Assembly: GCA_035533075.1 (NCBI GenBank)
Contig: DATLUO010000193.1
Location: forward strand, 186,001-250,000
From: Pirellulales bacterium
Lineage (GTDB): Bacteria; Planctomycetota; Planctomycetia; Pirellulales; JAICIG01
Length of the DNA: 64,000 nt
Reading direction: 5' to 3'
The translations under genes and the position numbers were made by a program. Shown here one piece after another: positions 2,577-60,281 of the stretch. Under the pieces are notes generated by a model. That model was not told the DNA's origin and searched no databases. It saw only the letters and a program-made list of their open reading frames with translations. Positions within the stretch are counted from its first letter, which is position 1; the number at the start of each line of letters is the position of its first letter.

Positions 2577-2688
2577 AGTCGAAAAGATTCGGTCCCACGC
2601 CAACGGCGCGGTAGAACACAGGGAGCCACGCAGGCGGACGACTGCAACCGATCCAACCCAAGCCAATCGCGAGATAGAACAAAGGATG
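2577..2688. repeat. dispersed repeat A, copy 1
   Basis: About 112 bases, beginning AGTCGAAAAGATTCGGTCCC and ending near AACAAAGGATG. It is closely similar to 54867-54981 and, over its first about 80 bases, to 55083-55163. All three copies keep the core GCGGTAGAACAC and AGCCACGCAGGCGG. Copy 1 directly abuts the broken FHA domain. It is followed by two copies of TCTTGGTTCCGAGCC (about 2688-2702 and 2711-2726). Confidence 0.8.
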
Positions 2689-12761: not shown

Positions 12762-12800
12762 GGTGGGCCGGCGCTCGCAAGCTCGCTGGTTCCACCCTAC
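12762..12800. repeat. repeat B, single arm at the end of the DUF1501 gene
   Basis: GGTGGGCCGGCGCTCGCAAG followed by CTCGCTGGTTCCACCCTAC: one arm of the palindrome found complete at 21028-21123 and 60191-60281. The TAG stop of the DUF1501 gene (12797-12799, minus strand) lies inside it. Confidence 0.75.
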
Positions 12801-14239
12801 GTTTGCAAAATGCCGGTGACCACGTCCCCCGGCTGCCCGTCGAGCAGCGTTTCCTGGCGGCCGTTGCGGCGATAAACGAGTCGCGCCGGGTCGAGGCCAA
12901 ACAAGTGCAAAAGCGTCGCATGATAATCGTAATGATTCACGATGTCGGCGACGGCGCGGTGGCCGAACTCATCGGTTTCGCCGTAAGTGCCGCCGCGGCG
13001 AAAGCCGCCGCCGGCCAGCCATAGGCTGAAGCCATAGGTATTATGGTCGCGGCCGACCGATGCGGGGCCGGCGTCGTTCTGGATCACCGGCAGCCGGCCC
13101 ATCTCGCCGCCCCAATGCACGATGGTTGTGTCGAGCAACCCGCGTTGCTTGAGATCGGCCACTAACGCCGCCGCGGGCTTGTCGGTCTTCAGGCAAGCGG
13201 CGGGCAAGGCCGTGCGAATGCCGCCATGATGGTCCCAGAACTGGTTGCGCGTAAAGACCTGCACGAACCGCACGCCCCGCTCGATCAGCCGTCGGGCGAT
13301 CAGGCACCGGGCACCGTACTCTTGCGTGGCCGGATCGGTGAGGCCGTACATTTCTTGTGTGGCCTTGGTTTCCTGGTTGATGTCGAGCGCTTCGCCGGCC
13401 GCCGTCTGCATGCGGGCGGCAAGCTCGTAGTTGGCGATCCGCGCCGCCAGGTCGCTTTCGCCGGGCCGCTCATCGAGATGCTGGCGGTTGAGCTGCTCCA
13501 GATAGCTCAGATAATTCCGCTGCACCGCGCCCCGCAGCTCGGCGGTCGGCTCCAGATTCAAGATGCGCGGTTCGCGCGGGCGGACCACGGTGCCTTGGAA
13601 GAGCGACGGCAGCCAGCCGTTCGACCAGTTCAGCACGCCCTCGACCGGCAAGCCTTGCGGGTCGGTCATGGCCACGTAGGCCGGCAGATTCTGTGATTGT
13701 GAACCGAGAGCGTAGGTGAGCCAACTTCCCAAGGCCGGCCGGCCGCGCTGAATCCGGCCGCTGTTCAGGGCGTGAATCGCCTGGCCGTGGTTGTTGACGC
13801 CCGAGTGCATCGAGCGGACGACCACAATATCGTCCACGACTTTGGCCAGGTTCGGCAGCAGCTCCGAAACGTCGGTGCCGCACTCGCCGTGCTTGGCGAA
13901 CTTCCAGGGGCTGCCGAGGATTTTCGAGCTGGCCTGGGCGGCGTTGTCGTATTTGATGTCGCCGGGAAACTTTTGGCCGTCCAGTTGAGCCAGGATCGGC
14001 TTCGGATCCAATAGATCGACCTGGCTCGGCCCGCCCTGCATGAACAGCGAGATCATGGCCGTGGCCCGTGGCGGCGCGTGCGGCCGCTTCGGCAGCAGAT
14101 CGAACTTTTCGGGTTCCAGGCCCGGCTTGATCGGCTCGGCCAGCAGGCCGTCTTCGCCCAACAGCCAGGCCAGCGCAATCGGAGCGAGGCTCATGGAGCT
14201 CGTGGCGAGGAAGTGGCGGCGGGATGAAACTGAATTCAT
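12797..14239 (-). CDS. DUF1501 domain protein, Tat-exported
   Basis: A 480-residue DUF1501 protein (alkaline-phosphatase/sulfatase-like fold). The N-terminus has a twin-arginine signal (SRRHFLATS, residues 6-14) followed by a hydrophobic stretch. Characteristic blocks are FMQGGPSQVDLLDPKP, NNHGQAIHALNSG and FWDHHGGI. In planctomycetes these genes form pairs with PSD1/DUF1549-DUF1553 genes; the pair is thought to act outside the cytoplasm, with unproven substrate. Here the partner is present upstream on the same strand (15250-18204) but about 1 kb of foreign-looking genes lies between. The stop codon sits in a repeat B arm. Confidence 0.92.
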   Translation of the reverse strand: MNSVSSRRHFLATSSMSLAPIALAWLLGEDGLLAEPIKPGLEPEKFDLLPKRPHAPPRATAMISLFMQGGPSQVDLLDPKPILAQLDGQKFPGDIKYDNAAQASSKILGSPWKFAKHGECGTDVSELLPNLAKVVDDIVVVRSMHSGVNNHGQAIHALNSGRIQRGRPALGSWLTYALGSQSQNLPAYVAMTDPQGLPVEGVLNWSNGWLPSLFQGTVVRPREPRILNLEPTAELRGAVQRNYLSYLEQLNRQHLDERPGESDLAARIANYELAARMQTAAGEALDINQETKATQEMYGLTDPATQEYGARCLIARRLIERGVRFVQVFTRNQFWDHHGGIRTALPAACLKTDKPAAALVADLKQRGLLDTTIVHWGGEMGRLPVIQNDAGPASVGRDHNTYGFSLWLAGGGFRRGGTYGETDEFGHRAVADIVNHYDYHATLLHLFGLDPARLVYRRNGRQETLLDGQPGDVVTGILQT

Positions 14240-19551: not shown

Positions 19552-21156
19552 TCACCGCGACCGCGCGTGTACTTCCAGCGAGCCCGCGTTGTCGGCCAGC
19601 TCGGCTGGTGAATCGTTGATTCGCAGATAAAGCGTGCCGGACTTTTCGGGCGAAAGCTTGCCGCCCAGGCCAATTGCCACTGGCGCGGGCCAGTTTGGTT
19701 CGTCGTCGGCCAGCACGGTGGCCAGCAGCATTCCCAAGGGCCGGCCCCGATAATACCGGAGCGTGACCCCGCCCGGCTCGCACCACCAGGGATGCGGCTG
19801 GTCGGCAACTTCGTATCGGCCGCGGCCCGCAATCTCATACTCGCTGCCCGCGGACAGCCGAATGCCGCTCGACTGCCAACCGCGGTCGGCGGCGATGGCG
19901 ATCGTCTGGCCTTTTTCGGCCAGCGGCTTCGCCGGGCGGAATTCGATCGCGGCGCGCGCAAGGTCGTACCCATAGTCCAGTTCGTGGGTGAACGCCTGCC
20001 ATTCCAGGTCCAAATCCTGGCGGTCGTCGGCAAACCGCGAGCGAAAACGGCCGTTGAAATCCTCGGCCCGCAGCTCCGCGACGAGCGACCGAAAGCGGTC
20101 GTGATACCGGGGGTGGCCATCGAGAAATGCGGCAATCGCCCAGCACCAGCCGTAGACCTCGTTGTTCAGGTTGGCATCGGGAGGATACGCCAGGATCTCA
20201 TCGATCGTCAGCCCGCGACCCTCGCCGACGGCGTCGAGCACGATCTTGATACGGCCCCAGCCGGGCAGCTCGTCGCGGTGGGCGGGAAAGTAGGCCAGCC
20301 GGAGTCGGTCGCCTTCCATGCGATGGGTCGCCAGCAGCTCGGCGGTGGCTTCCATATACCAAGGCGGCCCGCAAGTGCCGAACCGGCAGTTGAGGAAAGC
20401 GTGGGTTCCCTCATGGATCATCAAGTGGCTGCGGTAATAGGTCCAGCTCGGCTCATACCACCAGATTTCGTTTCCGCGCGTGAAACCATGGGCGAAGGGC
20501 GGCAGCTCGTTCGGCAACAGTCCCGCGGTTTTGAACCGCTCGGCGTCGTTCATCAAGCAGCCCCGCACCTGCCACTTCGCCGCGTCGCTCTCGTCAACCG
20601 CGAAGTAGGCGCACCACAGCGGCACCGCCCGATCAAACAGTTGAGGCAGCGCGTCGATCGCATCGTCGGCCGGAAGGTCGGTGAAGAGCGTGAGATGATT
20701 TCCGACAATCGTGCGGATGCCCGCCGCTGCAATGCGTTTTTCATCGACCGCCGGTTGGACGTCCGGCGGCTTGGTGCCCGTGTCTGGTCTCGGGGCTTTG
20801 TCGAGGCCAGATACGACAGGTGCCGGTGTCGATCGTTCGTCGTTCTCGGTTTGCTCGACCGCGGGACGCTCGATCTCGCGCGAGCGATCGACGGTTGCTT
20901 CCTTGGTTGACGGAGAGGGCTTCGCGGCGACTTGACGAAGCGGAGGTTGTTCGCGGCCGCACGCGCCGCAGGTCGCAATGACGAGCCAGGCGATGGCGGA
21001 CCATTTCTTTGCCCCAACGACATGATGGTAGGGTGGGACCAGCGAGCTTGCGAGCGCCGGCCCACCGATAGCGACGTCGTTTACGGTGGGCCGGCGCTCG
21101 CAAGCTCGCTGGTCCCACCCTACGCTCAATGGGCGAGTCGGCGCGTTGTTCCGCAT
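19552..21156 (-). CDS. DUF1570-like secreted metalloprotease-type protein with a palindrome in its N-terminus
   Basis: The start at 21156 has GGAGGG six bases upstream; 534 residues follow. A zinc-protease HExxH motif is visible (HEGTH, about residue 248) with a likely third ligand in WYMEATAELLATH, as in DUF1570-like gluzincins. The C-terminal about 150 residues are beta-rich. A hydrophobic segment (WSAIAWLVIATCGAC) looks like an export or lipoprotein signal, but it begins about 47 residues in: between MRNNAPTRPLS and this signal, 32 codons of repeat B (21028-21123) are read in frame. No start codon lies after the repeat, so export of the product is uncertain. Confidence 0.7.
   Translation of the reverse strand: MRNNAPTRPLSVGWDQRACERRPTVNDVAIGGPALASSLVPPYHHVVGAKKWSAIAWLVIATCGACGREQPPLRQVAAKPSPSTKEATVDRSREIERPAVEQTENDERSTPAPVVSGLDKAPRPDTGTKPPDVQPAVDEKRIAAAGIRTIVGNHLTLFTDLPADDAIDALPQLFDRAVPLWCAYFAVDESDAAKWQVRGCLMNDAERFKTAGLLPNELPPFAHGFTRGNEIWWYEPSWTYYRSHLMIHEGTHAFLNCRFGTCGPPWYMEATAELLATHRMEGDRLRLAYFPAHRDELPGWGRIKIVLDAVGEGRGLTIDEILAYPPDANLNNEVYGWCWAIAAFLDGHPRYHDRFRSLVAELRAEDFNGRFRSRFADDRQDLDLEWQAFTHELDYGYDLARAAIEFRPAKPLAEKGQTIAIAADRGWQSSGIRLSAGSEYEIAGRGRYEVADQPHPWWCEPGGVTLRYYRGRPLGMLLATVLADDEPNWPAPVAIGLGGKLSPEKSGTLYLRINDSPAELADNAGSLEVHARSR
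21028..21123. repeat. repeat B, complete perfect palindrome inside a coding region
   Basis: Two 40-base arms, 21028-21067 and 21084-21123, are exact reverse complements (left arm begins GTAGGGTGGGACCAGCGAGC) around a 16-base loop. Total 96 bases, a multiple of three, with no stop codon on the minus strand. Related elements: 60191-60281 (36-base perfect arms) and the single arm 12762-12800. Confidence 0.92.
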
Positions 21157-21269
21157 TATGCTCCCTCCGCATTTGCCCGGATTATTCATGGCCGCGGGAA
21201 TAAATATGCCTCCGGGAGGCTCTAAGGCATTGAGTACCGTCACCTTAAGGCCGCGCACGGAGGCATGTA

Positions 21270-21560
21270 GTGGATCAGCAGTCTGTCTTCCAGGTTACCC
21301 TCGATTTTTTCGGTGCCAAGCCCATCGTGGTTGAGCCCACAGCCGGGCAGTTGACGTCGGACGCGGGACTTCTGCCGTTTCGTCAGCTCGATGAGCAAAT
21401 CGGGCTCACTCGCGGGTTCGCCGACGCGCTCACGGATGTCCGCGCCGCGGTTCAGGTGGACCACACGTTTCTGGAGATGGTCCGGATGCGGGTCTACGGC
21501 ATCTTGGCGGATTACCCGGACCAAAACGATCACGACCGATTGCGGAGCGATCCGCGACTG
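21270..21560 (+). pseudogene. IS1380-type transposase, N-terminal fragment
   Basis: The first about 95 codons match the start of IS1380-group transposases: KPIVVEPTAGQLTSDAGLLP, FRQLDEQIGLTRGFADAL, then FLEMVRMRVYGILADYPDQN and DHDRLRSDP. After DHDRLRSDP the homology ends abruptly; the DDE catalytic core is absent and no terminal inverted repeats are evident. It is a dead insertion-sequence remnant on the plus strand. Confidence 0.75.
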
Positions 21561-21568
21561 CATCGCTC

Positions 21569-21661
21569 GCCGGCTGCGCGTGCCTGCTCACCAACGACGT
21601 CGCCTTCCGGCAGATTATCGTGCTGTCGGTTCTCCTGCTCGACGATGCATTGGTGCCATGA
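21569..21661 (+). pseudogene. possible PIN-domain C-terminal remnant
   Basis: Directly after the transposase fragment, another frame reads AGCACLLTNDVAFRQI then IVLSVLLLDDALVP and stops at TGA. LLTNDxxFRxxxxLxVLLLDD resembles the last strand-helix-strand of PIN-domain toxins, where TND supplies the final acidic residue. Only about 30 codons remain. The match is short, so the call is tentative. Confidence 0.4.
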
Positions 21662-21712
21662 TTGCCGGCTGCCGCGGCCGCTTGACTTCGGCTAGACTTG
21701 TGGCCGCCGCGT

Positions 21713-52502: not shown

Positions 52503-52532
52503 GTAGCAGGCACACTCCGTTGTGCCGTTGCC
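52503..52532. repeat. repeat C, inverted copy
   Basis: GTAGCAGGCACACTCCGTTG then TGCCGTTGCC, the reverse complement of the tandem unit found 90 bases to the right. It can pair with those units to form a long stem. Confidence 0.7.
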
Positions 52533-52620: not shown

Positions 52621-52719
52621 GGCAACGGCACGGCGGAGCGTGCCTGCTACTTTGGCAACGGCACGGCGGAGTGTGCCTGCTACTTTGGCGACGGCACAGC
52701 GGAGTGTGCCTGCTACTTT
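52621..52719. repeat. 33-base tandem repeat, three units (repeat C)
   Basis: Three units at 52621-52653, 52654-52686 and 52687-52719, each GGCRACGGCACRGCGGAGYG followed by TGCCTGCTACTTT. Units differ at one to three positions. Each contains a GGCAC/GTGCC hairpin. There are no spacers between units, so this is not a CRISPR array. Confidence 0.9.
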
Positions 52720-52849
52720 CTACGCGAGGCATCGCTGCCTCCTTTTGATGTGGCCGCACCGCCCGCTCGGCGGCGCTTGCCGTGTATTTAACCGATCGCC
52801 CGGCGATTGCAAGCAAGTTGCGGTCAGGTTTTTTCATGGGGACGTTCAA

Positions 52850-52907
52850 GGGTTCAGGGTTCAGGGTTCAGGGTTCAGGGTTCAGGGTTCAGGGTTCAGG
52901 GTTCAGG
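52850..52907. repeat. GGGTTCA microsatellite
   Basis: About eight perfect copies of the 7-mer GGGTTCA in a row. The length is not a multiple of three per unit and no gene reads through it. Confidence 0.92.
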
Positions 52908-53736: not shown

Positions 53737-53827
53737 CCCCTCATCCCTGAGCCCTTCGGCGTTCGTTGAGCAACCGACAAGCGTTCAGAACGACGAGCGG
53801 TTGCGGTGTATCTGTGCGTACCGTAGC

Positions 53828-53847
53828 CATCACGCTCCGCCGTGATG
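53828..53847. repeat. short palindromic repeat D, inverted copy 3
   Basis: CATCACGCTCCGCCGTGATG, the exact reverse complement of a CATCACGGCGGAGCGTGATG consensus. Confidence 0.6.
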
Positions 53848-53872
53848 AAAGCCGGCAATCGGAACCCAACCC

Positions 53873-54866: not shown

Positions 54867-54981
54867 AGTCGAAAGAATTCGGTCCCAAGCCAACAGCGCG
54901 GTAGAACACAGGGAGCCACGCAGGCGGGGACGCCTGCAACGGATCCAACCCAAGCCAAACGCGAGATAGAACACAGGAATG
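54867..54981. repeat. dispersed repeat A, copy 2
   Basis: AGTCGAAAGAATTCGGTCCC to ACACAGGAATG, about 115 bases, collinear with copy 1 (2577-2688) over its whole length with scattered differences. Confidence 0.85.
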
Positions 54982-55082: not shown

Positions 55083-55163
55083 AGTCGAAAAAAATTCGGT
55101 CCCAAGCCAACGGCGCGGTAGAACACCGGGAGCCACGCAGGCGGACGAATGCAACCGATCCGA
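55083..55163. repeat. dispersed repeat A, copy 3 (shorter)
   Basis: AGTCGAAAAAAATTCGGTCC to GCAACCGATC, matching the first about 80 bases of copies 1 and 2, in the same orientation as copy 2 and about 100 bases after it. Confidence 0.8.
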
Positions 55164-55520
55164 CAATACGACGCGCCCAACAACCGCTTCCGGCAGCGGG
55201 CCGCCACTGCCAGACCCGCTTGCGGAGCAAGCGGGCTACGTCGCCCGCTCGCTCCGCGAGCGGATCGGCGGTCGCGAAGCGGCGGCCCGCTACGACTGAG
55301 GATCCGCAAAGTGCCCGACGGTAGGCGGTAGACGGGGATTGAAGAGCGGCGAACGCCGCCAGAATGCCCAATCCAAAATCCAAAATCGGCAATCCAAAAT
55401 TGACCACCCCCCCCAGATTTACCGTTGCGGCGCCAAAATGGGCCGCGGCCGACCCTCGGCGCAAGATCCAACGGGCCAACGGCTTGCAGCCAGGGCAAAC
55501 CGAACGCCTGTTTTGTTTTT

Positions 55521-60190: not shown

Positions 60191-60281
60191 AGGTGGGGCC
60201 AGCGAGCTTGCCAGCGCCGGCCCACCGTGATGGACGCTCCTAAATGGTGGGCCGGCGCTGGCAAGCTCGCTGGCCCCACCT
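60191..60281. repeat. repeat B, complete palindrome between genes
   Basis: Arms 60191-60226 (AGGTGGGGCCAGCGAGCTTG...) and 60246-60281 are perfect 36-base reverse complements with a 19-base loop. Same family as 21028-21123 and 12762-12800. Located 10 bases after the TPR gene, it could stop or stabilise transcripts, but it lacks a T-run. Confidence 0.92.

Follow-up and report, generated by a model that had tools for sequence, protein, structure and literature searches.

The window analysed here is a 64,000-nt stretch of planctomycete DNA (positions 186001-250000 of contig C193) from a genome of 8,541,942 bases in 296 contigs. On its minus strand (19552-21156) lies a gene for a conserved planctomycete protein of 534 aa, which carries an HEGTH motif and has a hydrophobic segment at its N-terminus. 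The start codon, an ATG at 21156-21154, is preceded by a Shine-Dalgarno-like sequence, GGAGGGAG (21161-21168, minus strand), which ends 4 nt upstream of it. The predicted protein begins with MRNNAPTRPLS, continues with 32 residues encoded by a 96-nt palindromic element (21028-21123; codons 12-43) and then enters HHVVGAKKWSAIAWLVIATCGACGREQ; the element is in frame and free of stop codons. A first-pass annotation had noted that the element parts the ribosome-binding site and the first 11 codons from the hydrophobic segment, and the layout of the reading frame is in accord with this. Its description of a perfect 40-base inverted repeat also holds, with arms at 21028-21067 and 21084-21123 and 16 nt between them.

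Among the other genes of the window, a planctomycete-type cytochrome gene and those with DUF1549/DUF1553 point to a planctomycete as the source. Just upstream of the host gene, on the plus strand (21270-21692), is a divergent and truncated transposase gene (Pfam DDE_Tnp_1_4, PF13701) that retains only the first ~85 aa. This part of the window, upstream of the host gene, has probably undergone rearrangement.

A dispersed family of GTAG-tagged repeats

The 96-nt element is a REPIN, a head-to-head dimer of a 39-nt REP unit composed of GTAG followed by GGTGGGACCAGCGAGCTTGCGAGCGCCGGCCCACC. Unit 1 (21028-21066, plus strand) consists of the GTAG tag (21028-21031) and a bulged hairpin (21032-21066), and the inverted unit 2 (21085-21123, minus strand) has its arm at 21085-21119 and its tag, read as CTAC, at 21120-21123. 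Between them is an 18-nt spacer, GATAGCGACGTCGTTTAC (21067-21084), which contains the palindrome GACGTC and has the commonest spacer length of the family. When a single unit was folded as single-stranded DNA, the GTAG was unpaired and the stem was bulged. An intrinsic terminator was also considered for the hairpin and rejected, as the sequence 3' of it on the coding (minus) strand, CATCATGTCGTTGG, contains no T-run.

Searching the whole genome with the REP arm gave 741 matches (365 forward, 376 reverse) and the reversed-pattern control gave 0, so a chance origin is excluded. Gene-context and arm statistics were drawn from 1.53 Mb of the genome, on contigs partly picked for known REPs or Y1 transposases. 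This sample holds 137 arms at 101 loci; one recognisable unit is seen at 66 of them, a simple doublet at 34 and a triplet at 1. The simple doublets are always head-to-head (+-), never -+, with a spacer mode of 18 nt. Identity to the consensus is seen in 107/137 arms, and exact arms are slightly commoner in doublets than in singles (83% vs 74%). The tag before the arm is GTAG in 109/137 cases and GTAA in 13. The 5' GTAG is conserved and the 3' side of the copies varies. Traces of a partial second arm are kept in at least 17 of the 60 single REPs checked.

The family is predominantly extragenic: 18/101 loci fall inside genes predicted by a simple home-made codon-based gene finder, as against 81.6% of random positions in the same 1.53 Mb. 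In 15 cases in this sample the GTAG of a REP supplies the TAG stop of a neighbouring gene. The same is seen in the window, where a single REP (12762-12800, minus strand) ends the minus-strand gene 12797-14194. The window also carries a second, slightly diverged REPIN of the family at 60191-60281, with inverted arms at 60191-60226 and 60246-60281. Taken by its unpaired 5' GTAG on an imperfect stem-loop, its dispersed high copy number and its extragenic bias, the repeat is a GTAG REP, and as an inverted doublet with the preferred spacer the element is a REPIN.

What the first-pass annotation overlooked is that the element is one among hundreds of RAYT-associated REPIN copies. It had correctly remarked that the insert is stop-free and a multiple of three in length; these are traits of the family, in which the unit is 39 nt and the commonest dimer 96 nt, and not an adaptation of the host gene. 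The element thus owes its length, its perfection and its open frame to the family it belongs to.

Additional repeats of other kinds are scattered through the genome. At least two more GTAG-tagged palindromic repeats (GTAGCAGGCACACTCCG... and GTAGCCATCACGCTCCGC...) occur in the window, at positions 52503-52532, 52621-52719, 53823-53853 and 2746-2780; they have 8 and 12 matches in the 1.53 Mb. Another dispersed repeat (CCAAGCCAACGGCGCGGTAGAACAC...) occurs at window 2582-2657, 54872-54947 and 55089-55164, and similar sequence is present upstream of a Y1 transposase on contig C209. There are also heptamer arrays, (AGGGTTC)n, for example at window 52849-52904. In the 1.53 Mb, 10/56 of these arrays lie within 60 bp of a family REP, mostly on its 3' side, a proximity due in part to the tendency of both toward intergenic DNA.

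The REP pattern did not occur in any of 396 other genomes that sample the order, including the nearest one, which belongs to the same family and another genus. Likewise, an exact-pattern scan of GTDB contigs, from which the genome itself was possibly left out, found no copy of the family. The REP family therefore looks lineage-specific, and the uniformity of its copies suggests a recent spread.

The cognate RAYT

A RAYT gene on contig C135 (27105-27557) scores 170 bits against the NCBIfam model NF047646, for which the cut-off is 80. It is directly flanked by the REP of the element, with one copy upstream and, after the stop codon, a REP followed by an inverted REP (REP-RAYT-REP-inverted REP). 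This matches the REPtron organisation known for GTAG REPs (PMC3733652) and for REPINs (PMC3116915). On contig C138 a decayed relative of the gene has the same REP downstream of it. Furthermore, related RAYTs in five genomes of other genera have beside them GTAG hairpins of their own, different in sequence. The cognate gene was found only by the NCBIfam RAYT model and not by Pfam PF01797. The 12 PF01797 matches (Y1 transposases) were considered as movers and set aside; several have other repeats alongside, and none adjoins the REP of the element. On four further contigs (C26, C190, C67 and C218), other Y1/RAYT-like genes have repeat families of their own at their flanks (e.g. GTAGGGAACGCC..., GTAGCCCGCTCGCTCCG...); several REP systems thus coexist in this genome.

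E. coli TnpAREP requires the GTAG and the stem bulge (PMC8266576). By analogy with the published TnpAREP biochemistry, the C135 RAYT is probably the transposase of these REPs; it would bind the GTAG and bulged hairpin as single-stranded DNA and would move REPINs in trans.

The small size and perfect inverted ends of the element would also suit a MITE mobilised by a DDE transposase, its terminal inverted repeats being 39 nt long. This reading is highly improbable in view of the prevalence of loci with a single recognisable unit, even allowing for those that keep part of a second arm, and of the asymmetry between the conserved 5' GTAG and the variable 3' side. Also, no target duplication (direct repeat) was found at this site, where the flanks read ...GACATGATG before the element and GCTCAATGG... 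after it, and the transposase associated with the REP is a RAYT.

Probable insertion into the host gene and predicted translation through the element

Homologues of the host gene are present in 55/58 genomes searched, its own included. In those relatives whose N-termini were aligned, few residues precede the hydrophobic segment and nothing occupies the place of the element. The comparison with orthologues that the first-pass annotation had called for thus shows that the element is not common to them all, and the insertion into an existing gene that it had proposed is well supported. We infer the exact boundaries of the insertion. When GTDB contigs were scanned with the host protein for a close relative that might show an empty site, no relative turned up. 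Similarly, a search for empty sites among the genome's own repeats, with joined flanks compared against the 1.53 Mb, returned mostly those flanks themselves and no convincing site.

The host protein is probably exported. In the lipoprotein signal claimed for it in the first-pass annotation, the cleavage motif is imperfect (IATC or CGAC), as against SGC, PGC or VGC in several relatives, and export is for this reason not certain.

No in-frame ATG, GTG or TTG was found between the element and codon 178 of the host gene. Consequently, either translation crosses the REPIN, as the first-pass annotation had supposed, or the signal segment is missing from the protein; export would require translation through the element. 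The peptide predicted if translation enters the element is VGWDQRACERRPTVNDVAIGGPALASSLVPPY. By its sequence the host-gene copy is an intragenic one that is read through, being in frame, stop-free and missing from the relatives.

According to the main text of Di Nocera et al. 2013 (PMC3733652), REP-bearing ORF N-termini are often annotation artefacts, a known pitfall. By that token the element could lie in the 5' leader, with a non-canonical codon further downstream as the start of the protein and the upstream ATG being there by chance. Two other copies near ORF starts, on contigs C40 and C18 and each upstream of a plausible later ATG, do look like 5' leaders and were not counted as support for read-through. 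At the host gene, however, such an artefact would need a non-canonical start (CTG at codon 39, or ATC/ATT at codons 55/60) or a protein that has lost its signal segment. Moreover, the upstream ATG has a good Shine-Dalgarno sequence before it, and the gene finder picked this ATG at 21156 although the element itself received no coding score. We consider a leader position unlikely.

The RNA helix of the element is predicted to be very stable (z = -9.7), which bears out the expectation of a very stable mRNA hairpin just after the start codon. This helix begins 33 nt downstream of the A of the ATG. An initiating ribosome does not usually reach that far, and so the helix need not block initiation. 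A 40-bp RNA helix is a plausible substrate of RNase III, and a gene for this enzyme is present in the genome. The element may lower expression of the host gene. A stronger version of this, that the REPIN silenced the gene or strongly lowered its output, is possible, though doubtful. It could act through RNase III cleavage or ribosome stalling at the helix, or through a region of ~50 residues before the hydrophobic segment, far longer than that of the relatives, that spoils export. Against it stand the position of the helix and the state of the gene, which is otherwise intact over 534 aa, with ~50% identity to its relatives and no frameshift; also, the genome encodes just one other homologue, a distant one (29% identity). 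A location just 3' of the start codon and a high stability would equally befit an evolved regulatory hairpin, such as an attenuator or thermosensor, specific to the host gene. This is scarcely credible, given that hundreds of unrelated loci carry this very sequence, that the relatives of the host gene lack it and that no T-run follows it on the coding strand.

Very probably, then, the element is a lineage-specific GTAG REPIN, likely moved by the C135 RAYT, that inserted in frame after codon 11 and persists as a passenger. One REPIN would have landed at this point in the gene of a conserved, probably exported protein, and the gene stayed intact because the insert is exactly 96 nt long with an open frame. 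The host gene would since have encoded 32 additional residues before the hydrophobic segment, a place in which the REPIN is probably tolerated. Any effect on expression, by slowing of ribosomes or by RNase III cutting of the 40-bp helix, would be a side effect rather than an evolved switch.

Other in-frame copies and relation to known repeats

The host gene is not alone in carrying the family. Several copies lie well inside genes and in frame, among them a DnaE2-type polymerase gene, a glycosyltransferase gene and others. The DnaE2-type polymerase gene (contig C116, 1102-4554) has two in-frame REPINs, at places where its relatives differ in length. A second probable lipoprotein gene (contig C54, 18376-19065) resembles the host gene in having a family REP between its predicted start and the signal segment. 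The main frame of the family is open on both strands, the unit is 13 codons long and the commonest dimer 32 codons (96 nt). From these features it could be proposed that the family was shaped for protein compatibility, which we regard as a long shot. Dimer lengths are multiples of three in 7/7 intragenic copies vs 21/30 elsewhere, a difference that is suggestive but not significant and is drawn from a partly circular comparison, in that an unbroken ORF was required for calling a copy intragenic. If the proposal were true, copies could survive inside genes, and recurring peptides (VGWDQRACERRPT, GGPALASSLVPPY) would have been added to several proteins, including the DnaE2-type polymerase and the probable lipoprotein.

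GTAG REPs, REPINs, their pairing with RAYTs and in-frame intragenic copies are already known; new are this family and this locus. As in the REPINs described by Bertels and Rainey 2011 (PMC3116915), a hairpin is formed by two inverted REPs around a short spacer, most copies are extragenic, the RAYT gene is flanked by the same REP and some of the single REPs are what is left of doublets. The present element differs in that the sequence of its family was not found elsewhere and that this copy is intragenic. The 741 arms may be set beside the 91-323 REPINs per genome given in PMC8049555, a rough comparison only, since the units differ. For the GTAG REP superfamily, the main text of Di Nocera et al. 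reports members in Planctomycetes, head-to-head dimers and intragenic copies in other bacteria, including in dnaE2. With that superfamily our family shares the GTAG tail, the stem-loop, dimers with a conserved spacer, the use of GTAG as the TAG stop of neighbours and the in-frame intragenic copies, dnaE2 included. It differs in its 39-nt unit with a long, complex loop, and its exact consensus does not appear in the main text of that study. Rickettsia palindromic elements (RPE), as cited there, are likewise palindromic repeats read in frame within protein genes, and RPE-4 and RPE-6 are CGTC-type repeats without a dedicated RAYT; the sequence and organism of our element are unrelated to them.

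These findings show, in a planctomycete, a clear pairing of a REPIN with a RAYT. The copies are very uniform, some of them lying in frame within genes, and the pair is a usable case for how proteins tolerate small mobile hairpins inside them.
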